A DNA stretch of 38,873 bases from Saprospiraceae bacterium (GTDB lineage Bacteria > Bacteroidota > Bacteroidia > Chitinophagales > Saprospiraceae): positions 1 to 38,873 of the forward strand of contig JAJTEZ010000007.1 of the NCBI GenBank assembly GCA_021298335.1, read 5' to 3'. The notes under the pieces are model-generated. The model was not told the origin of the DNA. It saw only the letters and a list, made by a program, of their open reading frames with translations, and did no database searches. A program made the translations under genes and the position numbers. This document shows, piece after piece, positions 1-25,591 of the stretch; within the stretch, counting starts at the first letter, position 1, and every line of letters begins with the position of its first letter.

Positions 1-1795
1 AAATATATTGTTCTATGTATTGATAATGCGCAGTTGCCTGTACTTGGAAGCCGGACCGAACCTCTCCCGTCCACTCCGTGGATATGCGGTAGGCCCTTTC
101 GGGTTGAAGTGATCGATTTCCTTCCTCAATGCCACTGACTCCCTGGTGAAGTCCCTGGCTAAACTGTTCGTTGACATCAGGCGGTCGCTGAGTGAATGAA
201 AAGTCTGACTTCCATTTTCTTGTTCGGGCAAGATTTTTCTGAACTCCGGCATTGAATGCGTAGCCCTGAAAATGCTGGCTGATTTTTTCAACTGTCTGGT
301 TGCTTTGGATGAAATAAACTGTATTCCACTTCCATTCGGAGCGAAGGCCACATTCTGCCGACCAGTTTTCTTTTTGCCATTGAATCAGTCCAAAGAATGC
401 TCCCTGATGCTGCAAATAATCAGGAATCAGCGGGCGTACTCCTGTGCCCGGCTGATTTGTGTTATTTGCATTTTTATATTGGAATCCTACTTGACCATGT
501 ATATCTCTGACAGGATTGGTTAAATGCAGCGAGAGCTCATAAAATTGACTGAGTAAGGCCAGGTCGAGAGAGGGCTTTGACTCCCTACCTGATCGTCTGA
601 CGTCAAACTCTTCACGCAAGTTGGCCTGAAACCCTGCTTTCATTCTTAGGAAATAATCTTCTTTGAGAAGGAATTTCTTTTCTCCCGATACCATATGGTG
701 TGCAACCAATTGCCGGGGGGCTTCAATTTTGTATGAAAATGAATCTCTGGTAAACAATGGGACCTGCAACGTAAAAGCTTTCTCCAGATCAGCCAGGCTG
801 CCAGGATGCGCCCCTTTGAGCATGCCCTGAGACGAATGGAAATAACTATAATATAGGTTTAATGGGTGGGGACTTGTCTGGCTGTTTGCATAATACACGG
901 AAGCTGCAACTTGCTTTTGTCCGGTATTTGTCAGAAAATACCCGGGTGTTTGCATGTCACCGCTCAGATTTCCGCTAGCAGCAACCCTCCAGCGCGATGT
1001 CGTTCCATTTTTTCGAAAGATTGCCTGCCCTCCGGCCTTTCTGCCATTAGTCTGGAAAATGGTTTTTACTGATCCATGCCAGTGTGGGTCCGGTGAATCC
1101 CAGGAAGGTTCTACACTGATGATACCACCCATGGCCGATACACCGTACCTTACGGACTCTGCACCCTTGAAAACCAGTATTTTATCACCCGCTTCCGCAT
1201 CTACTTCCGGAGCATGGTCATTGCCCCACTGCTGGGATTCCAGTGCCAGACCGTACTGAATGATGCCTATCCGGTTGCCGGTCATACCCTGGATCACCGG
1301 CTTGCCCAAGCCAGGACCTGAACGAAGAATTCTAACACCTGCAATTTTTGAAGTCAACTCGCTGAGAGTTGACCCACTTTGTTCAAGCATTTGCTCTTTG
1401 CTGATGATCTGTCTACTGGTCCCCAATCTACTATCCGTAGGATTAGCCTGGATGTGCACTACTTCAAGTTGAGTGGCAGAATGGTTTAAAGTAAAATCTA
1501 TCAATGTATCCGACTTCAATGGAAGAAATACCACTTTACTTTCACAACCTACATGCGAAATAACAATGTGAATATCACCTGGACATAAGCTTTTCATTTC
1601 AAATTGCCCTTCCTCGGACGCAATTGTTCCTTTACCTGATTCTTGCACATATACTGTGGCAAATGCCAATGGTTCACGAGTATGCAAATCCACAATAGCA
1701 CCTTTCAGGGTGAAGTAGCATTCTTTAACCTGAGAATAGACGCATTCAGGTATTGCCGTGAAAAGTAAAAACACGTACAGAATCAAATGTTTCAT
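1..1795 (-). CDS. TonB-dependent outer-membrane receptor, C-terminus cut by window edge
   Basis: Reading the minus strand from the ATG at 1795-1793 gives about 598 codons without a stop to the window edge. A signal peptide (MKHLILYVFLLFTAIPECVYS) leads into a carboxypeptidase-regulatory-like beta domain (about residues 28-110, with EPLAFATVYV), then a plug domain containing GKPVIQGMTGNRIGI and WGNDHAPEVD, then the start of the barrel. The last third of the barrel lies outside the window. Receptors of this kind bring scarce ligands across the outer membrane using TonB-ExbBD energy. The HAPEVD/GVSAMGG plug signature recalls metal-type receptors such as ZnuD; that comparison is from memory and the ligand is an inference. 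It is divergent from the TolC gene, and its promoter carries a 15-bp Fur-family-like dyad. Confidence 0.88.
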   Translation of the reverse strand, partial: MKHLILYVFLLFTAIPECVYSQVKECYFTLKGAIVDLHTREPLAFATVYVQESGKGTIASEEGQFEMKSLCPGDIHIVISHVGCESKVVFLPLKSDTLIDFTLNHSATQLEVVHIQANPTDSRLGTSRQIISKEQMLEQSGSTLSELTSKIAGVRILRSGPGLGKPVIQGMTGNRIGIIQYGLALESQQWGNDHAPEVDAEAGDKILVFKGAESVRYGVSAMGGIISVEPSWDSPDPHWHGSVKTIFQTNGRKAGGQAIFRKNGTTSRWRVAASGNLSGDMQTPGYFLTNTGQKQVAASVYYANSQTSPHPLNLYYSYFHSSQGMLKGAHPGSLADLEKAFTLQVPLFTRDSFSYKIEAPRQLVAHHMVSGEKKFLLKEDYFLRMKAGFQANLREEFDVRRSGRESKPSLDLALLSQFYELSLHLTNPVRDIHGQVGFQYKNANNTNQPGTGVRPLIPDYLQHQGAFFGLIQWQKENWSAECGLRSEWKWNTVYFIQSNQTVEKISQHFQGYAFNAGVQKNLARTRKWKSDFSFTQRPPDVNEQFSQGLHQGVSGIEEGNRSLQPERAYRISTEWTGEVRSGFQVQATAHYQYIEQYI

Positions 1796-1816
1796 ATACT
1801 ACATAACACAATCAAA

Positions 1817-1831
1817 TGCAACATTGTTGCA
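1817..1831. promoter_or_regulatory. 7-1-7 inverted repeat, probable Fur/Zur-family operator
   Basis: TGCAACA-T-TGTTGCA is a perfect dyad with 7-bp arms around one central base. It begins inside the TTTGCA of the receptor's -7 box (1830-1837, minus strand) and covers the expected transcription start, where a bound repressor would block the gene. The 7-1-7 geometry is that of Fur-superfamily operators. The regulator and the metal are inferred, not shown. Confidence 0.5.
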
Positions 1832-1837
1832 AAAATA
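1830..1837 (-). promoter_or_regulatory. -7 promoter box of the TonB receptor
   Basis: The minus strand reads TATTTTTG followed by CA, matching the Bacteroidota -7 consensus TAnnTTTG. A TTTG at 1855-1858 lies 17 nt upstream as a possible -33 element, slightly closer than the usual 19-21 nt. Confidence 0.6.
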
Positions 1838-1921
1838 CATAGAAAGTAAAAAATCAAAGGTGGTTAATCTATACGAAAGGCTGTTTTATATAAATTTTTT
1901 TTTCAAAGCACGAATTCCCCT

Positions 1922-1929
1922 TAATTTTG
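1922..1929 (+). promoter_or_regulatory. -7 promoter box of the tolC-like operon
   Basis: TAATTTTG followed by CA fits TAnnTTTG. The predicted start is about 5 nt further on, leaving a leader of about 13 nt before the ATG at 1947. This placement is the main reason for rejecting the upstream in-frame ATG at 1758. I see no clear -33 box. Confidence 0.6.
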
Positions 1930-1946
1930 CAGAAACAACTCCCTGC

Positions 1947-3257
1947 ATGAAGATTGGAAAGTTAATAATAATAGCCTTAGTGGTTCTGGCTTGCAGGCCC
2001 GGTTTGAATGGACAAAAAATCTGGAATCTTGAGGCATGCATCAGACAGGCAGTAGAAAAAAGTCTTCAGGTCGAATCTGCAGTGCTGGCCGTAGAGAATA
2101 CTGAAGTGACAGCAACCCAGACACAGCACTCGAGGTTTCCTACTTTAAATGCTTCAACAAATGCAACGTGGAACTTTGGTAGAACAATCGATCCGACAAG
2201 GAATGAATTTATCACAGAAACGTTTTTCAACAATGGCGTTTCATTATCTACGGGTGTGACATTATTTAATGCAGGCCGGATTTCGAATTCAATCAAGCAA
2301 TCGGCGATGGATAATAGAGCGGCCGTGCAGAACCTGGAGCAGGTCAAAAGAGATATTGCCCTGAATGCTGCCACATTTTACCTCAATATTTTGTTTGCCA
2401 AGGAATCCATTGTCAATGCTCAAAAGCAGCTCGCCCAGACCAAAAATCAGCAACAGTTGCTGGAAAAGCAAATAGCAGTGGGTAACCGACCCGAAAATGA
2501 TCGGATAGAACTTGAGGCACAACTTGCAGCAAACGAACAAACTCTGGTGGAAGCAGAAAACCAGTTTCGACTTGGCACCTTAAATATGAAGCAATTGCTG
2601 CGATTACCTCCAGAAGAGGCTTTCGATATTGAAGTGCCTCAGAATCTGGGTCCCAGTACCGATCCGGATGAGGTAACGTTTGAAATTCTTTTGCAGGGAG
2701 CAATGGCAACTCAGCCATCAGTCGCTGCGAGCGAGTGGAGTTGGAAAAGTACTATTCTGGGAGAAAAAATAGCCGCCTCCCAGTTGTATCCTACAATAGG
2801 AGTTGGAGGTAGTTTGAGATCAAATTATTCAAATAAAGGTTTCGATATTTCCGGCTACGATGAGCAGATCATTAACCAAACTGTATATATCAATGGACAG
2901 GAAGTCACTGTCGGTTTTCCGCAAAACATACCGAGAATAGAGCAAACTCCGTACATCAGTCAGTTCCAGGATAACCTTTCCTATGGTTTTGGTGTCACTA
3001 TGTCCATTCCTATCTACAACAATTATGCTGCCCGTCTGGGGGTGCAAAGAGCAAAATTGGGTCAGGAGTCTGCGAGAGTTAACTTCGAACAGGTAAAAGA
3101 ATCACTAAAAATCACAGTTGGCCAGGCCCTGAATGATGCTAAAGCCACCAAAGCAAGATTTATCGCGGCTGAAAAAACCCGCAGGGCCCAGCAAAATCTG
3201 TACAACAAATTAGACCTTAACCCATGCAAAAATCTCCAAAACGTAAATGGATACTGA
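1947..3257 (+). CDS. TolC-family outer-membrane efflux protein, C-terminus damaged
   Basis: The ATG at 1947 gives a signal peptide (MKIGKLIIIALVVLACRPG) and then the two outer-membrane efflux repeats: helical and strand segments from WNLEACIRQAV (about residues 28-40) through LNAATFYLNILFAKESIVNA and, in the second repeat, GFGVTMSIPIYNNYAARLG. TolC proteins form the trimeric exit duct of tripartite pumps. The second repeat stops abruptly after AEKTRRAQQNLYN. The family normally has some 50 more residues there (the last helix pair, ending near a DFY motif), but here about 16 unrelated residues run into the adaptor gene. Stops in the other two frames (TAG 3211, TAA 3218) sit just before the adaptor's ATG, as expected if the natural end was there and an internal block was lost with a frame change. 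It is first in an operon with the HlyD-type gene. Confidence 0.82.
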   Translation: MKIGKLIIIALVVLACRPGLNGQKIWNLEACIRQAVEKSLQVESAVLAVENTEVTATQTQHSRFPTLNASTNATWNFGRTIDPTRNEFITETFFNNGVSLSTGVTLFNAGRISNSIKQSAMDNRAAVQNLEQVKRDIALNAATFYLNILFAKESIVNAQKQLAQTKNQQQLLEKQIAVGNRPENDRIELEAQLAANEQTLVEAENQFRLGTLNMKQLLRLPPEEAFDIEVPQNLGPSTDPDEVTFEILLQGAMATQPSVAASEWSWKSTILGEKIAASQLYPTIGVGGSLRSNYSNKGFDISGYDEQIINQTVYINGQEVTVGFPQNIPRIEQTPYISQFQDNLSYGFGVTMSIPIYNNYAARLGVQRAKLGQESARVNFEQVKESLKITVGQALNDAKATKARFIAAEKTRRAQQNLYNKLDLNPCKNLQNVNGY

Positions 3258-4612
3258 TAGGCTTATCTATCCTAGTAGTTCTTGCACTTGCAACAACGCT
3301 GATTCGCAGGTACACTGCGCCCAAGGGAACGGAAGTGACGCTCGCCATGTCTGAGACCAGAGAGATCAGGGAAACGGTTTCTGCCAGTGGAAAAGTATTT
3401 CCTGAAAGTGAAGTTAAAATCTCTTCTGATGTGTCAGGTGAAATCGTGGAGTTATACGTGAAGGAAGGAGACTCTGTCGTCATTGGTCAGGTCCTTGCAA
3501 AAATTAATCCCGATACGTATGTTTCTGCCGTAGAACGAGGGGAAGCTTCCGTCAATAGCAGTAAAGCGCAGCTGGCAATTTCCAGAGCTCAGATTGAATC
3601 GAGTACTGCGCAAAAAGAGCAGATTGCTGCGCAGCTTGAAAACGCAAGGACAATCCATAAGCGCAATGAACAACTGAAAAAAGATGGGGTTATCTCCCAG
3701 GCAGAATTTGATCAGACGTTGGCCACAGTCAAACAACTGGAGGCTAATTTTCGGGCTTCTGAAGCGAGTATCCGCTCTGCCCAACAAAATGCTCAGGCTT
3801 CAGAGTTCAGTATCAAAGGGGCGATGGCCTCGTTGAATGAATTGCGTACTAGTCTCAACAGGACAACCATCAAGGCTCCTTCCAGTGGCATTGTATCAAA
3901 ACTTTCCGTAGAGCAGGGAGAGAGGGTAGTGGGCACAATCCAGATGACCGGTACAGAAATGATGCGCATCTCAAATCTCAATGCCATGGAGGTTCAGGTT
4001 GATGTCAGTGAAAATGATATTCTCAAAGTCAAAGTAGGGGATGAAGCTGACATTGAAGTGGATGCGTATATCGGTAAAAAATTTAAAGGCATCGTCACAG
4101 AAATTGCCAGTTCTGCATCAAATATCTCTGCCACAGCAGCGTCTCTCAATACTGATCAGGTGACCAATTTTGTGGTTCGTATCCGAGTGGATGAAAAATC
4201 ATACCAGGACATCATCACAGATCAACTGAAATACCCATTACGCCCCGGCATGAGTGCCTCAGTGGATATTTATACGGATGAAGTTCAAGGGGCAGTGGCT
4301 GTTCCGATTCAGTGCGTAGCTGTTAGGGAAAAAGGTGGTCCAAAAAAAATTGAAGAGGCTCCCGCCGAGGAAGGTATCGCTGAAACTGAAAAAAAGGAGC
4401 AAGACTTTGACGAGGTAGTTTTTCTGATGGATGCCGATACCGTTAAAATGATCAAAGTGGTCACCGGAATCCAGGATGACGAATTTATTGAAATAAAACA
4501 GGGATTGAAGACTGGACAACAAGTCATCTCCGGACCCTACGTCGAGGTGAGTAAAAACCTCAAATCGGGAGACCGTGTAAGAAAAAAGAAGGAAGAAGAA
4601 GAGGAAAATTGA
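3224..4612 (+). CDS. HlyD/RND-type periplasmic adaptor (membrane fusion protein)
   Basis: This 462-aa protein has one N-terminal membrane anchor (about residues 9-27, ILIGLSILVVLALATTLI). A biotinyl/lipoyl-like half follows (VSASGKVFPESEVKISSDVSG and VKEGDSVVIGQVLAKI, about 50-95), then a long alpha-hairpin coiled coil (about 100-215), the second lipoyl half (RTTIKAPSSGIVSKLSVEQG), beta-barrel and membrane-proximal domains. A charged EEAPAEEG/KKEQD insertion (about 375-395) and a Lys/Glu tail are unusual extras. Such adaptors join an inner-membrane pump to a TolC duct. The usual MacB-type ABC pump does not follow; a DUF2064 gene does. The start ATG at 3224 follows directly on the expected end of the TolC gene. 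Confidence 0.9.
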   Translation: MQKSPKRKWILIGLSILVVLALATTLIRRYTAPKGTEVTLAMSETREIRETVSASGKVFPESEVKISSDVSGEIVELYVKEGDSVVIGQVLAKINPDTYVSAVERGEASVNSSKAQLAISRAQIESSTAQKEQIAAQLENARTIHKRNEQLKKDGVISQAEFDQTLATVKQLEANFRASEASIRSAQQNAQASEFSIKGAMASLNELRTSLNRTTIKAPSSGIVSKLSVEQGERVVGTIQMTGTEMMRISNLNAMEVQVDVSENDILKVKVGDEADIEVDAYIGKKFKGIVTEIASSASNISATAASLNTDQVTNFVVRIRVDEKSYQDIITDQLKYPLRPGMSASVDIYTDEVQGAVAVPIQCVAVREKGGPKKIEEAPAEEGIAETEKKEQDFDEVVFLMDADTVKMIKVVTGIQDDEFIEIKQGLKTGQQVISGPYVEVSKNLKSGDRVRKKKEEEEEN

Positions 4613-9554: not shown

Positions 9555-11148
9555 ATGAAGAATATTCGAAATTTTTGTGTCATCGCACACATAGATCACG
9601 GGAAAAGTACGCTTTCTGATCGTTTGCTTGAATACACCAAGACAATTTCAGAACGTGAAATGCAGGCTCAGGCTCTTGACGACATGGATCTGGAGAGGGA
9701 GCGAGGCATTACCATAAAGAGTCACGCGATTCAAATGTATTATCACCACAAAGATGGGCAGATGTATACATTCAACATGATTGATACTCCAGGTCACGTA
9801 GATTTTTCCTACGAAGTGTCTCGGTCGATTGCGGCGTGTGAAGGAGCTCTTCTTTTGGTAGATGCTTCACAGGGAATACAGGCGCAGACCATCTCTAACC
9901 TCTACCTAGCCATCGAGCACGATCTGGAGATTATCCCTGTTTTGAATAAAGTGGATATGGAGTCAGCCATGATAGATGAGGTGTCAGATCAGGTGATTGA
10001 GCTCATTGGCTGTAAAAAAGAAGAAATTATCCTCGCCAGTGGAAAGACTGGTATTGGAATAGAATCTCTGATGGAGGCGATAGTAGACAGAATTCCAGCT
10101 CCGAAGGGCAATCCTGAAGCTCCTTTACAGGCGTTGATTTTCGATTCAATGTTTAATTCATTTCGCGGTGTAATCGCTTATTACAGAATATTGAACGGTA
10201 CAATCCGAAAAGGGGATAAGGTACGCTTTTTTAATACTGGAAAGCATTATGAGGCTGATGAAATTGGAATACTGCAAATGCAGCAGATCCCTAAGGATGC
10301 TTTATCTGCCGGAAATGTAGGATACATTATAACGGGAATCAAAGAATCAAAGGAAATCAAGGTAGGGGATACCATTACCCACCATGACTCTCCTTGCTCT
10401 GAAGCCATTCATGGTTTTGAGGAGGTTAAGCCCATGGTTTTTGCAGGTATTTATCCTATTGAAAACGAAGACTTTGAAGACCTTAGGGATAGCCTTGAAA
10501 AATTACAGTTGAATGACGCTTCGCTGGTGTTTGAACCGGAATCATCGATTGCTCTGGGTTTTGGCTTCAGATGTGGATTCTTGGGGATGTTGCACCTGGA
10601 AATTATCCAGGAACGCCTTTCGAGAGAGTTTGATCAGGAAGTAATCACGACTGTACCCAACGTTTCCTATTTTTCATACGACCACAAAGGCGTAAAAACC
10701 CTGATCAATACTCCGAATGATCTGCCTGACCCGACACTTTTTAGCAAGGTAGAGGAGCCATATATCAGGGCACAGGTCATTACGAAACCGGAATATATCG
10801 GTTCCATAATGACTTTATGTATGGAGAAACGGGGTATTTTGACAAAACAACATTACCTGACCAAAGGCTGAATATATCGGTCGAAAAATGTGCCTGAAAC
10901 TGAAGGAGCTTTTACCCAGACAGCAATTCATGATAGCTATCCAGGCTTCTGTAGGTGCCAAAATTATTGCCCGGGAAACGATTTCTGCACTCCGAAAAGA
11001 TGTGACAGCTAAATGTTATGGAGGTGATATTTCCAGAAAGAGAAAACTTTTGGAAAAACAAAAGAAAGGAAAAAAGAAAATGCGCCAGATTGGCAATGTT
11101 GAGGTGCCTCAAAAGGCATTCTTGCAGGTATTAAAATTGGAGGACTAA
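9555..11148 (+). pseudogene. lepA: Elongation factor 4 (LepA), internal deletion plus frameshift
   Basis: LepA is a ribosome-associated translational GTPase acting on stalled or initiating ribosomes. The N-terminal frame (9555-10871, 438 aa) has the P-loop [27 protein letters not shown], beta-barrel and EF-G-like domains up to [18 protein letters not shown], then hits TGA. The C-terminal frame restarts in another phase around 10880 with [17 protein letters not shown] and runs through [21 protein letters not shown] to VLKLED, stop at 11146. Family members are about 600 aa. Roughly 65-70 residues between YLT and GRKMC (the start of the LepA-specific C-terminal domain) are missing. The 12-mer GAATATATCGGT occurs at 10792-10803 and again at 10870-10881, next to the junction. 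Confidence 0.9.
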
Positions 11149-16304: not shown

Positions 16305-16336
16305 TTTGCTTTTTAGGAAATTTGGACGTACTTTTG
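16305..16336 (+). promoter_or_regulatory. Promoter of the SRP RNA gene
   Basis: A -33 TTTG at 16305-16308 is separated by 20 nt from the -7 box TACTTTTG at 16329-16336, the textbook Bacteroidota arrangement. The RNA hairpin begins at G16341, directly after TTTGCACC, which calibrates the transcription start for other promoters here. Confidence 0.75.
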
Positions 16337-16340
16337 CACC

Positions 16341-16430
16341 GTGAGGAGCATTCGGCCAGCTCCTTCCGAATCCCCCAGGGTAGAAATGCAGCAAGGGTAG
16401 GAGGTTGAGCGGCTCGGGGTGTTTCCTCAC
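16341..16430 (+). ncRNA. ffs: Signal recognition particle RNA, small bacterial type (4.5S-like)
   Basis: The transcript would be about 90 nt. The ends pair as a closing helix, GTGAGGA (16341-16347) with TCCTCAC (16424-16430). The apex holds the conserved SRP core: CCAGGGTAGAAATGCAGCAAG around 16375-16395, with the asymmetric and symmetric loops that bind the Ffh M domain. A T-run (16431-16436) follows the closing helix and can act as terminator. With Ffh and FtsY this RNA targets membrane proteins co-translationally. The identification rests on the core motif and the terminal helix; a covariance-model search would settle exact ends. Confidence 0.9.
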
Positions 16431-16461
16431 TTTTTTCCCTTCTTCACTTATTCACTGAAAT

Positions 16462-17124
16462 ATGAAATTTTTTATCGATACTGCCAATCTTGATCAGATT
16501 CAGGAGGCGGCTGATTTTGGTATTCTCGATGGAGTCACTACCAACCCCTCACTCATGGCCAAAGAAGGCATTTCAGGTGAGAAAAATATAATTTCCCACT
16601 ACAAGAAAATCTGTAAGATTGTCGAGGGTGACGTTAGCGCTGAGGTGATTGCGACTGACTTAAAAAACATGATTACTGAAGGTGAACGGCTGGCAGACCT
16701 TGCAGACAATATTGTGGTCAAAGTTCCTATGACAAAAGACGGAGTCAAGGCCATCTCGTACTTCTCAGAAAAAGGTATCAATACAAACTGTACCTTAGTA
16801 TTTTCAGCTGGTCAGGCGATACTGGCCGCAAAAGCAGGGGCAACGTACCTTTCTCCTTTTGTGGGCAGAGTCGATGATATCAGCTGGGATGGAATAAAGT
16901 TGATCGAAGAAATCGTATCCATTTACTCCATACAGGGCTACTCCACAGAAATCCTAGCTGCCTCAATTCGTACCCCGCTGCATATCGTGCAGGCTGCCAA
17001 AGCAGGTGCTGATGTCGTCACATGACCTTTGTCCTGTATTCTCGGTCTGCTCAACCACCCTCTGACAGACATTGGTCTCGCAAAATTTCTGGAAGACCAC
17101 CAGAAAGCTCAGGCAAAGGGATAA
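16462..17124 (+). pseudogene. tal: Transaldolase (small, TalC/Fsa-like type) with in-frame TGA
   Basis: The frame begins MKFFIDTANLDQIQEAADFG and carries DGVTTNPSLMAKEG, the Schiff-base lysine in NIVVKVPMTKDG, NCTLVFSAGQA and SPFVGRVDDIS. It stops at TGA 17023-17025 (codon 188), just after GADVVT. The same frame then continues with family sequence PLSCILGLLNHPLTDIGLAKF and ends at TAA 17122, giving the full family length of 220 codons. Relatives have Cys or Gly at this position, so one base change (TGC, TGT or GGA to TGA) explains it. The enzyme transfers dihydroxyacetone units in the non-oxidative pentose phosphate route. The ORF as it stands is 16462-17025. Losing the last helix would probably hurt oligomer or active-site packing. 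Confidence 0.88.
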
Positions 17125-17140: not shown

Positions 17141-18464
17141 TCAACAGTCAATCAGATTTACAGCTGTGGCGAGTCCTCCTTCTGAAGTTTCCTTATACTT
17201 CCTGTTCATGTCTTTTGCTGTTTCCCACATAGTTGAAATCACATGATCAAGGGAAACTTTTATATCTAAAGGATTTCGGTCCATCGCAATGGCAGATGCG
17301 TTGATTGCTTTGATGGCTCCCATCGAGTTCCTTTCAATGCAAGGTATCTGCACCAAACCTCCAATCGGATCGCAGGTCATACCGAGGTGGTGTTCCATCG
17401 CAACTTCGGCAGCAATTGTGCATTGTTCAGGTGTGCCTCCCAACAGTTCTGTCAGACCCGCCGCCGCCATCGCAGAAGAAACACCGATCTCGGCCTGGCA
17501 CCGCTTGTTGGTTGACAAAGCACAGATAGTACATCAAAACGGCAGGAATCACTCCGGCACTTCCATTTGTAGGAGCTGTGACCACACGTCCGAAGGAAGC
17601 ATTGATTTCATTGACCGCAATCCCAAAACTGCCCACCCACTTGATGGTTTCCTGAAAACCAGGTTTTTTTTGACGGATCTGTTCCATCCAGCCATGTCTG
17701 TCATGGTAGTTTTTTGTGCCAATCATTTTGTCTGTCACTTCTCCTGCCCGGCGTTTGACCTGTAGAGATCCCGGTAGATATCCCCAGCTATGACAACCCT
17801 GATACATACATTCCAGCATGACATCCCAGATTTTCAGCAAGCCCTCTTCGATTTCGTGATGCTTACGGTCTACCAGTTCATTTTGCATAACCACAGATGA
17901 TATGTTCAACTGATGTTTCTGACAATGTTGGATCAACTGCCTGCTGTGGCTTACAGGATATGGGTGAGTGTTGGTGTGTGCCATCTCTGCGGCACTTTCT
18001 CCTTCCCACATGATAAATCCTCCGCCCACAGAATAAAACGTTTCACTAAATACTTCACCCTGGGTATTTTCAATCAAAAACAACAAACCATTGGCATGGA
18101 AGGTCAGGAACTCCTTTTCAAAGACAATATCCTTTTCAGGATCGAAAACAAGCTCATGCATGTTAAACTTTACAGACTTTTGTTGCTTGATCTCCTCGAT
18201 GTAGTCAGGAATCAGCTCAGTTGCCACTGTCTCCGGATCAAAGCCCATCAGACCCATCATCACGGCGAGATCTGTTGCGTGCCCTTTGCCGGTCAATGAT
18301 AATGAACCATATAAATGGACGCGCAACACACTTTGATTCTGCAACCATCCCTTTTCTGAGGCATGTTTCATAAACTGTAAAGCTGCCTTCCAAGGACCAA
18401 GGGTGTGCGAAGATGATGGTCCCACACCAATTTTAAACACATCAAATACACTTATAAATTCCAT
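17141..18464 (-). pseudogene. sdaA: L-serine ammonia-lyase (iron-sulfur type), internal deletion plus frameshift
   Basis: This enzyme deaminates L-serine to pyruvate and ammonia with a 4Fe-4S cluster. The N-terminal frame (from ATG 18464) shows SVFDVFKIGVGPSSSHTLGPW, the beta domain, and [21 protein letters not shown]; it then derails near 17508 and ends at 17427. A second phase picks up [41 protein letters not shown] (the cluster cysteines) and runs to TGA 17141. Compared with E. coli SdaA (454 aa) about 30 residues between CF and CQAEIG are missing. The gene begins 12 nt behind hddC, so it is probably the last gene of the heptose operon, and it converges on transaldolase with 16 nt between them. 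Confidence 0.88.
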
Positions 18465-22457: not shown

Positions 22458-22985
22458 TTAGGAAGTTTTCTCATGCCGAAGTAAATGTCGGAGGTATTCT
22501 TTCAAGCGGAATTCTGTGAGGAAGCCAATGCCTAGTTCTGCGATGCCAGTCATAGCCACAGGAATGCAAGTTCCGAGCGTGATCGATTTCCAGAAAGTAA
22601 AAACTCCAAAGGTGCTGCAGATACCACAGCAAAGAATCGCCCACAAATAAACTCTTCGACTTTTCTTTTTCTTTATAATTCGTTGGCGGGTTGCATCAAT
22701 TTCACGGAGAATTAATGGCTGATTCGGGGTGGTTAAATGTAGAAAGGACTGATATTTTTTTCTTGCAATGGCAAACAGAAACAATCCTTTTCCGAGACAG
22801 TAAGCAGAAAACATCTGAAATCCGATAGAAAGATAGGTAAAGCCCGGTGTCAATTCCAGTCGATATAAAAGAAGTGAGATAAGAAATAAGCACAGAGAGG
22901 ACAACAAATAAAAGGCGGCAGCCCACATATCACCTCTGTACAACAATCGTATGATATCAGGTAGGGTGGGAGCTGATGCCGTCAT
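22458..22985 (-). CDS. Four-helix membrane protein, unknown, coupled to urocanase
   Basis: This 175-aa protein has four hydrophobic segments (about residues 21-40 AAFYLLSSLCLFLISLLLY, 48-75, 113-133 VYLWAILCCGICSTFGVFTF, 136-158) and a strongly basic cytoplasmic stretch RQRIIKKKKSRR between the two pairs. I do not recognise a family. Its ATG (22983-22985) overlaps the natural stop of the urocanase gene as ATGA, so the two are translationally coupled once the urocanase frame is restored. That makes a link to histidine or urocanate use possible, but unproved. Confidence 0.7.
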   Translation of the reverse strand: MTASAPTLPDIIRLLYRGDMWAAAFYLLSSLCLFLISLLLYRLELTPGFTYLSIGFQMFSAYCLGKGLFLFAIARKKYQSFLHLTTPNQPLILREIDATRQRIIKKKKSRRVYLWAILCCGICSTFGVFTFWKSITLGTCIPVAMTGIAELGIGFLTEFRLKEYLRHLLRHEKTS

Positions 22986-25011
22986 TTGACTATTCTTTTC
23001 AACAGCTTTTTATCTACAAGGTGTGGCAACGTAACGACGAGTTTGTCGTGATGATTCATGGCGCTTTGTATGGCTTGCATTGCTCCTTCGTTTCGGGCCC
23101 AGCTGCGCCGTGCAATGCCATTGTTGACATCCCAGAAGAGCATATTTCGGATGTTTTTGTCAGATTTTTTGACCCATCGATGACCATGCCGAATCCACCA
23201 TTGATGACTTCTCCCCAGCCTACGCCTCCACCATTGTGCAATGAGATCCAGGTGGCACCCCGAAAACCATCCCCTGCAAAATTATGTACAGCCATATCTG
23301 CTGTAAATTTTGAACCATCATAAATATTGGCGGTTTCCCGGAATGGCGAGTCTGTTCCCGATACATCGTGATGGTCTCTTCCAAGGACAATTGGACCAGA
23401 GAGCTTGCCTTTCTGAATTGCTTTGTTGAATGCGCGTGCGATGGCTATACGGCCGTTTGAATCTGCGTACAAAATCCTGGACATTGAACCCACAACGGGT
23501 ATGTTTTTGCCTGCCTGTTCTATCCAGTGTATGTTGTCACTTAGCTGGACTGCAATGTCAGGACTTGCTTTTTTAGAAAGTTTCCTGAGTACCTTTGTTG
23601 CGATTCGATCTGTTATATTGAGATCTTCCTGATTGCCTGACAGGCAAACCCACCGAAATGGTCCAAAACCGTAATCAAAACAAAGGGGTCCCATGATATC
23701 CTCTACATAGGAGGCATATTTGTAAATTTTCTTTCGCTTGCTTTTCCAGATCTCTGCCCCTGCTTCTCCGGCTTCTTTCAGAAAGGCATTGCCGTAATCC
23801 CAGAAATACATGCCTCTTTCTGCCAGCAAGTTGATGGCCCTCACATGTCTTACAAGTGTTTTTCGCACTTCCAGAGCAAATTTTTTCGGGTTTTTGCCCA
23901 ATAATTCCTTTGCTTCGGCAAAGCTATAGCCAGCCGGGCAATAACCGAGATTTTCAATGTTGTGTAGTGAGGTCTGATCGGAACCCAGCTCAATGTGTAT
24001 ATTTTCTTTGACTGCAGACTCCCATAAATCCACGATATTTCCATGATAAACCAGGCTTGCTGCAATTTTCTTTTTTTTGTATTGGATGGCTTTCGCCCAA
24101 AGCTTGTCTAAATCCGTAAAAACATGATCTTTTTGGATATATCCGTCGGTAATTCGCTGATTTACTGCGTCTGTATCTACTTCGGCGATGATACCTACAG
24201 CTCCTGTAATCACTGCAGCAATCGATTGGGCACCAGACATTCCTCCCAGTCCTGAAGTGACAAAAAGTACGCCATTCAGATTGTCTGTACCGAGTCCTTT
24301 CATCCTGCCGGCATTCAGTAGTGTAAGCGTTGTGCCGTGGACAATTCCTTGTGGACCGATATACATAAATGATCCTGCAGTCATTTGTCCGTAGGAGGTC
24401 ACTCCCAGGGCATTGTACTTATTCCAGTCATCTTTCTTTGAATAATTGGGAATCATCATGCCGTTGGTTACCACGACTCTGGGGGCATTCTTCGTGGAGG
24501 GAAAGAGGCCGAGAGGATGCCCAGAATATAGTGCAAGTGTCTGGTCATCAGACATTTCAGATAAATATTTCATGGTAATCCTGTACTGCGCCCAGTTTTG
24601 GAATACAGCACCATTGCCTCCGTATGTAATCAATTCCTCAGGGTGTTTTGCGACTTTAGGATCAAGATTATTCTGTACCATGAGCATGATAGCTGCTGCC
24701 TGTCTAGATTTTGCAGGATAATCTTCTATCGGCCGGGCGTGCATGGGTTCTTCGGGCATAAACCGGTACATATAGATTCTTCCGTAAGTCATCAACTCGT
24801 TGTAAAACTCCGATGCCAGGATTTTATGCTGATAAACGGGAAAATAGCGCAATGCATTTTGAATGGCTAGGGAGACCTCTTCTTTCGACAATAAGTCCTC
24901 AATATTCCGCTTTGGAGCATGGGAAACTGAAGGGTTGGGAGATTTTGCAGTGGGAAGTTCTGCAGGAATTCCCAGGGTCATTGCGTAGGTACTTTCTTTT
25001 TTGCCAGACAT
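22982..25011 (-). pseudogene. hutU: Urocanate hydratase with a one-base frameshift near the C-terminus
   Basis: Urocanase hydrates urocanate to imidazolonepropionate, step two of histidine breakdown, using tightly bound NAD+. The frame from ATG 25011 (MSGKKESTYAM) carries LITYGGNGAVFQNWAQYR, SGHPLGLFPS, TSGLGGMSGAQS, CFDYGFGPFRWVCLSG, GRDHHDVSGTDSPFRET and NGGGVGWGEVINGGFGM. At the run of six A (plus-strand T 23165-23170) the phase slips and translation would end near 23056 in unrelated residues. Adding one base restores NMLFWDVNNGIARRSWARNEG and DKKLLKRIVK, ending at TGA 22982-22984, for about 676 aa. No hutH, hutI or hutG is in the window. It has its own promoter box at 25033-25040. Confidence 0.92.
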
Positions 25012-25032
25012 TTTGATTGGGTTTGCGTTGTG

Positions 25033-25040
25033 CAAAGATA
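25033..25040 (-). promoter_or_regulatory. -7 promoter box of hutU
   Basis: The minus strand reads TATCTTTG followed by CA, the same extended -7 box as lepA and bamD. It lies 21 nt before the ATG at 25011, supporting that start over the upstream in-frame Met at 25152. Confidence 0.6.
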
Positions 25041-25077
25041 CACAAAGGATACTGAATCGTTTAGAAAGGCAAAGGGC

Positions 25078-25107
25078 AAAAAAAAAGCCGGCAATTGCCG
25101 GCTTTTT
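25078..25107 (-). terminator. Rho-independent terminator of the Cys-rich protein gene
   Basis: GCCGGCAATTGCCGGC (25087-25102) is a perfect palindrome flanked by nine A on the left and five T on the right. Read on the minus strand it is a GC-rich hairpin followed by nine U, placed 16 nt after the stop of the Cys-rich gene. It is nearly symmetrical and might also work on the plus strand. Confidence 0.85.
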
Positions 25108-25123
25108 ACATCTTTTAGAGATA

Positions 25124-25591
25124 TTACTTGTTGCTTTGCTTTTGAGCTGCACAAGATTTTGCAGCGCCGCTCTTGCAGCATGCTTTACCTTCCATTTTTC
25201 CTGCGCAAGACTTAGTTTCTACCTTTGCGCCGTTTTCATCTTTTTCCATGCTTGCAGAAGCTACCTTTGTAAAGGCCTTTTTGTCTGCGTCATACTTCAC
25301 TTCATCCCAGCTTACCTTTCCGGACTGAGAACAAACAGATTTTTCAAAATATGTCGTTGTTCCTGACATTTCACAAGTTCTTTTTGTGATGGTTCCATTG
25401 GAAGCTGCTACTGCTGCTTCTGCCTCCATTGTAAAACTAGCGATCTGCACACCATTCTCTGCTGAAGCACTAGCTGAAGCTGACTTTTTTGCAGCACAGC
25501 ATGATTTTCCTGCTGCAGCCTTACTGCACTGAGCCTGGGCAGAAGAGGCGAAAACTAAAAACATTGAGAAAATAAAAATTACATTTTTCAT
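25124..25591 (-). CDS. Small secreted Cys/Ala-rich protein, unknown
   Basis: This 155-aa protein has a clear signal peptide (MKNVIFIFSMFLVFASSAQA) and nine cysteines, all in the mature part. They include CC pairs in GKSCCAAKKS near the N-terminus and KACCKSG plus KSCAAQK at the C-terminus. The middle holds a beta-like segment TTYFEKSVCSQSGKVSWDE. Ala, Lys and Ser dominate. Paired cysteines suggest disulfides or soft-metal binding in the periplasm, but there is no recognised family. It has its own promoter and terminator, so it is monocistronic and may be strongly expressed. Confidence 0.75.
   Translation of the reverse strand: MKNVIFIFSMFLVFASSAQAQCSKAAAGKSCCAAKKSASASASAENGVQIASFTMEAEAAVAASNGTITKRTCEMSGTTTYFEKSVCSQSGKVSWDEVKYDADKKAFTKVASASMEKDENGAKVETKSCAGKMEGKACCKSGAAKSCAAQKQSNK

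Follow-up and report, generated by a model that had tools for sequence, protein, structure and literature searches.

Why does the transaldolase gene in the draft genome of a Saprospiraceae bacterium carry an in-frame TGA ahead of its last 32 codons? We addressed this question in a window of 38,873 nucleotides, the whole stretch of DNA analyzed here (contig JAJTEZ010000007.1 of assembly GCA_021298335.1, forward strand), which is contig C56 of a draft that totals 2.97 Mb over 218 contigs and is 83.7% complete. Judged by profile comparison, positions 16462 to 17124 on the forward strand encode a TalC/FSA-type transaldolase of 220 codons with predicted activity, presumably in the nonoxidative pentose phosphate pathway. 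The ATG at 16462 and the TGA at 17023 to 17025 share one frame. Codons 1 to 187 (16462 to 17022) end at the TGA, which is codon 188 and is counted among the 220, and the last 32 codons follow and are closed by a TAA at 17122 to 17124 (together 17026 to 17124). The original prediction of an otherwise complete transaldolase that continues past the TGA for 32 codons to a length of 220 therefore holds. With the TGA read through, TIGR00875 (fsa_talC_mipB) is matched at 287.4 bits (cut-off 245.95) over model positions 1 to 212 of 213, and the part at 16462 to 17022 matches PF00923 over positions 1 to 223 of 285 by itself. The best solved relative, 1vpx, is an annotated transaldolase and spans residues 1 to 215. 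We take the part after the TGA to be the region that carries the swapped C-terminal helix in FSA; an uninterrupted frame that includes this helix is absent from the assembled gene, owing to the TGA at codon 188. The 5′ neighbor is ordinary, a small SRP RNA at 16334 to 16434 on the forward strand (Rfam RF04183, Bacteroidales_small_SRP; 65.4 bits, gathering threshold 55.2), and the DNA upstream of the transaldolase gene aligns with three relatives from 16328-16329 onward. By eye, a similar-looking stretch lies 5′ of the transaldolase copy in the more distant genome G050.

To judge whether the sequence past the TGA behaves as coding sequence, we paired codons without gaps against four genomes of the same genus. 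Amino acid identity was 86 to 93% over 28 codons after the TGA and 89 to 93% over the 187 codons before it, and the 28 downstream codons carried 14 to 19 synonymous versus 2 to 4 nonsynonymous differences. On these comparisons, the conservation of the frame past the TGA is far beyond chance. At codon 188 itself, 36 relatives have Cys (31), Ala (3), or Ser (2) and never a stop, with Cys in eight of the nine same-genus relatives. Among the matches listed, 80 loci from named genomes, a few of which also supply the 36-relative set, have Cys (45), Gly (24), Ala (7), Ser (3), or Thr (1), which broadly agrees with the Cys or Gly originally proposed for relatives. The 15 loci from a viral collection have Met (7), Ala (5), or Gly (2), with one locus not covering the position. 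No internal stop was found in the aligned part of these 95 loci, and the window's own gene is the only homologue compared with a stop at codon 188. Transaldolase identity to named relatives reached at most 78% among the matches listed (metagenome-assembled Bacteroidetes, Saprospiraceae, and Chitinophagales), a set of 80 from which records very near the window may be absent. Two simpler ideas were discarded: the TGA in G050, a candidate second genome with the same codon, is that gene's own terminal stop, and an insertion or deletion at the TGA is contradicted by the gapless pairing of the coding sequence with relatives.

The gene is close to universal among the genomes examined. It was found in 59 of 60 genomes (the bacterium's own included; three matches partial), and no other internal stop was present in it across the 60 genomes searched. 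Within the draft, a profile search with PF00923 returned a single match, the window transaldolase, and no second transaldolase that could cover its loss was found in this 84% complete sequence.

The TGA is not the only lesion in the window. On the forward strand, lepA (9555 to 11148) contains the junction of a 200-bp deletion with a frameshift at 10838 to 10890 (net −200 relative to the LepA of all six relatives compared, with DNA alignment as further evidence). About 480 bp from the TGA, on the reverse strand, sdaA (L-serine dehydratase; 17141 to 18464) has lost about 92 bp, with a frameshift, at a junction placed at 17500 to 17518 (net −92 relative to five relatives and −89 relative to one), and TIGR00720 matches it as two halves. 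The sdaA of one relative, G005, is also frameshifted, by one base. Further along the reverse strand, hutU (urocanate hydratase; 22985 to 25152) has a −1 frameshift near its 3′ end at 23140 to 23180 (net −1 relative to nine relatives), with the upstream frame matching TIGR01228 over positions 10 to 508 of 545. A TolC-family outer membrane gene on the forward strand (1758 to 3257) has lost its C terminus at 3200 to 3260: three relatives of 474 to 477 amino acids match it only as far as residue 418 to 427, leaving about 50 last residues missing, and the spacing to the next gene is approximately 170 to 200 bp shorter than in three relatives.

Similar damage was observed in other contigs of the draft (genome handle G000). 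The panB gene (locus L170, 7020 to 7785; G000 C101) lies in two frames, with a net difference of −104 from one relative, its sole yardstick. At locus L178 (8000 to 11440; G000 C181), the first 33 model positions are missing from murG, which is fused with ftsW in one frame of 727 amino acids, as seen in the draft itself with no relative compared. After this frame lies murC, in two frames (net −112 against one yardstick); the ftsW-murG-murC region looks like collapsed sequence. The release factor gene prfB (locus L240; G000 C169:9455-10352) is likewise in two frames, matching its model at positions 13 to 63 (a weak piece of 25 bits) and 92 to 352; in each of the seven relatives compared, a single frame runs from model position 12 to 14 through to position 352. 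Many prfB genes contain a programmed frameshift, which usually sits further upstream. Because the split here falls between model positions 63 and 92 and the relatives have a single frame, it is not that programmed frameshift. Most bacteria cannot live without murC, murG, and prfB, so an artefact of assembly is the most likely origin of the deletions.

We then counted broken genes in the draft and in nine genomes of the same genus; the counts are samples, limited to genes for which the sampled stretches contained a relative. With the draft's own open reading frames among the yardsticks, 6 of 52 genes were broken, compared to 7 of 386 in the nine genomes, two of these seven control genes resting on one open reading frame of the window as sole yardstick. 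With the draft's own frames excluded as yardsticks, the excess of broken conserved genes persisted (5/52 versus 7/362; Fisher's exact test, one-sided P = 0.010, a comparison made after the window lesions had been seen). The sdaA gene was counted in the 6 of 52 and dropped from the 5 of 52 because its G005 yardstick, with its own sdaA split, showed no event. Outside the window alone the excess was not significant (2/24 versus 7/362; P = 0.10). By the own-frames-excluded count, 5 of 73 genes were broken in G005, showing that lesions of this type occur in drafts of the genus.

Taken together, these observations suggest that the TGA is probably a consensus error, arising in assembly or base calling, in a damaged draft; among the explanations weighed, this is the most likely cause. 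By comparison with relatives, the living cell probably has an ordinary sense codon at position 188, Cys, and would then make a transaldolase of the TalC type with the normal 220 residues. The single-base change to TGA may share the cause of the other lesions or stem from low coverage underlying them. Several lines of evidence favor this reading: the breaks in lepA, sdaA, hutU, the TolC-family gene, panB, murC, murG, and prfB within one draft, the difficulty of crediting a living lineage in which murC, murG, and prfB are all broken, the constraint that continues past the TGA, and the status of this gene as the only PF00923 match in the draft. The available portion of PMC11017572 also links many putative pseudogenes to assembly errors. 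Against it, most of the other lesions are losses of about 90 to 200 bp or of one base, whereas the TGA is a substitution without gaps relative to relatives; across 19,891 aligned codons no other TGA interrupts a frame that is otherwise intact, and as a single substitution it need not share the cause of the other lesions. The nonsignificant excess outside the window and the broken genes of G005 also weaken the argument. Nevertheless, the deletions are most probably due to assembly or consensus error, an explanation that we extend to the TGA; a draft of this quality offers little ground for relying on a single base.

The main rival is a real, recent nonsense mutation in the strain or population, a one-base change from TGC or TGT to TGA; we regard it as a serious possibility, though a less probable one than error. 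If the mutation were real, translation would end after residue 187, the C-terminal helix would be lost, and transaldolase activity would be lost or impaired. In FSA, the swap of the C-terminal helix makes cyclic pentamers, according to the portion of PMC7008512 available, and the truncated product would probably be inactive because the helix that builds this pentamer is gone. In favor of the mutation, TGA is one base away from the codons of 31 of the 36 relatives, the coding sequence pairs with theirs without gaps, and this genome uses TGA as a regular stop, at the ends of 27 of the 55 own genes whose ends match relatives. Conservation that carries on unbroken past the TGA is as compatible with a recent event as with an error, and a truncated form that is probably defective, as the FSA helix swap suggests, is what such a mutation would yield. 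However, it would cost the bacterium the sole transaldolase found in the 84% complete draft, in a gene that 59 of 60 genomes carry, none with another internal stop, and the remaining damage in the draft would hardly be tolerable to a living cell. Deletions and frameshifts in several other conserved genes of the draft, including murC and prfB, thus rank sequence error above real nonsense.

Far less probable is that UGA is read as sense, either by leaky readthrough of a UGA followed by C or through loss of release factor 2 with reassignment of UGA. A real UGA at this usually-Cys site, translated by readthrough or under a weakened release factor 2, would give both a short and a full-length transaldolase, an outcome we hold to be very unlikely. 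UGA before C is a weak stop context, the assembled prfB is in two frames against one in all seven relatives, and the 29 tRNA matches in the 84% complete draft (150 of 161 candidates scored) included no tRNA-Cys. The prfB lesion is, however, of the same kind as the lesions in unrelated genes, and codon use also speaks against the idea. In columns where all aligned relatives have Trp, the draft's own codon was TGG 124 times and never TGA; in Cys columns it was TGT or TGC 117 times and TGA once, at codon 188, where the TGA is not conserved. The tRNA-Trp has anticodon CCA, as read from its anticodon loop, and none of the tRNAs read by ARAGORN has a UCA anticodon. This CCA tRNA (locus L277, 1501 to 1573; G000 C112:30503-30575) is an Rfam match with no ARAGORN call, and its acceptor stem has nonstandard pairs. 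Five TGA codons occurred in the 19,891 aligned codons, in columns where relatives have R, S, C, R, and N; two, at 10869 and 17429, sit at the lepA and sdaA lesions, and two, at 16456 and 28121, lie just 5′ of start codons with a single yardstick each, leaving codon 188 as the only one inside an otherwise intact frame. A code with UGA reassigned was therefore rejected, given the 27 of 55 genes that end in TGA, the TGG codons at conserved Trp, and the CCA anticodon.

Least probable of all, and scarcely credible, is that SelB and tRNA-Sec recode the UGA so that selenocysteine replaces the usual Cys at codon 188. The predominance of Cys in relatives is the classic Sec/Cys pattern, and the 61 nt from position 17020 fold somewhat better than shuffled sequences (−14.3 kcal/mol, z = −1.97; an equally good fold arose in 6 of 200 shuffles). 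SelD, which speaks for selenium use, is present (421.8 bits; cut-off 125). Its gene (locus L389; G000 C106:25366-26298) lies at a contig end beside the C-terminal part of mnmH (tRNA 2-selenouridine synthase), a fragment that is cut short by the contig edge and does not reach the cut-offs of the models. According to the available portions of PMC5029168 and PMC1794560, the selenouridine trait depends on SelD and YbbB/MnmH but does not require the Sec genes, so the adjacent mnmH fragment accounts for SelD where neither SelA nor SelB was found. SelA (PF03841) had no match in the draft (84% complete) or in nine genomes of its genus; from other genera of the family, three genomes gave weak partial PF03841 matches of 22 to 48 bits. 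None of eight matches to the SelB model TIGR00475, one of them the window's lepA, exceeded the cut-off (best 183 versus 242), and none of eight matches to tRNA-Sec (RF01852) exceeded gathering (best 45.2 versus 47; 150 of 230 candidates scored), ARAGORN reading those eight as three Ser, three Leu, one Glu, and one His tRNA. Around the TGA, Rfam gave no family except one chance-level snoRNA hit (E values up to 10), and no other homologue compared has TGA at codon 188. In the literature, no transaldolase selenoprotein was found with the terms transaldolase, selenocysteine, and in-frame UGA, nor by word search of the available portions of PMC13188914 and PMC1794560, and the available portion of the latter, a 2006 survey, detected Sec decoding in no Bacteroidetes. 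Selenocysteine was rejected on the failure to find SelA and on SelB and tRNA-Sec models that stayed below cut-off; these absences are strong and not absolute, because the draft is 84% complete.

Selenocysteine and readthrough or reassignment together, that is, any translated UGA, remain most improbable, and recoding of the TGA is not supported. The search for selA, selB, selC, and other in-frame TGA codons called for at the outset returned no SelA in the 84% complete draft, sub-cut-off SelB and tRNA-Sec matches, and no second TGA inside an intact frame among the codons aligned. The explanations originally put forward (nonsense mutation or sequence error, with recoding as a less likely third) are thus supported as a set, recoding having been rightly ranked last, with TGA an ordinary stop, and sequence error now standing ahead.

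Relative to the TalC/FSA/MipB family (TIGR00875, PF00923), the gene is typical in its full-length match through the TGA and its single copy among draft matches, and atypical in that its assembled frame is broken at codon 188. Bacterial selenoproteins with Sec/Cys alternation share a TGA at a usually-Cys position; unlike them, this gene occurs where SelA was not found, SelB and tRNA-Sec were sub-cut-off, no other homologue compared has TGA, and TGA is otherwise an ordinary stop. Transaldolase is also absent from the top 20 bacterial selenoprotein families in Table 3 of PMC5029168, within the portion of that paper available. Cooley and Wright (2024; PMC11017572, available portion) report that many putative pseudogenes in public genomes are assembly errors, that internal-stop counts track assembly correctness, and that high coverage is needed to avoid errors. 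The present case resembles the spurious pseudogenes of that account in having an internal stop in a conserved gene and other unexpected breaks in the draft, and differs in that most breaks here are deletions of about 90 to 200 bp and not stops.

We conclude that the transaldolase itself is most likely ordinary, with an error in a damaged draft as the cause of its TGA. The case is a caution: a lone in-frame TGA at a Cys position mimics selenocysteine, yet the same draft has deletions in murC and prfB. Calling any gene of this assembly a pseudogene, a fusion, or a recoded gene requires recourse to the reads. A TGA that nonetheless proved genuine and translated would represent unexpected UGA recoding for the Bacteroidota.
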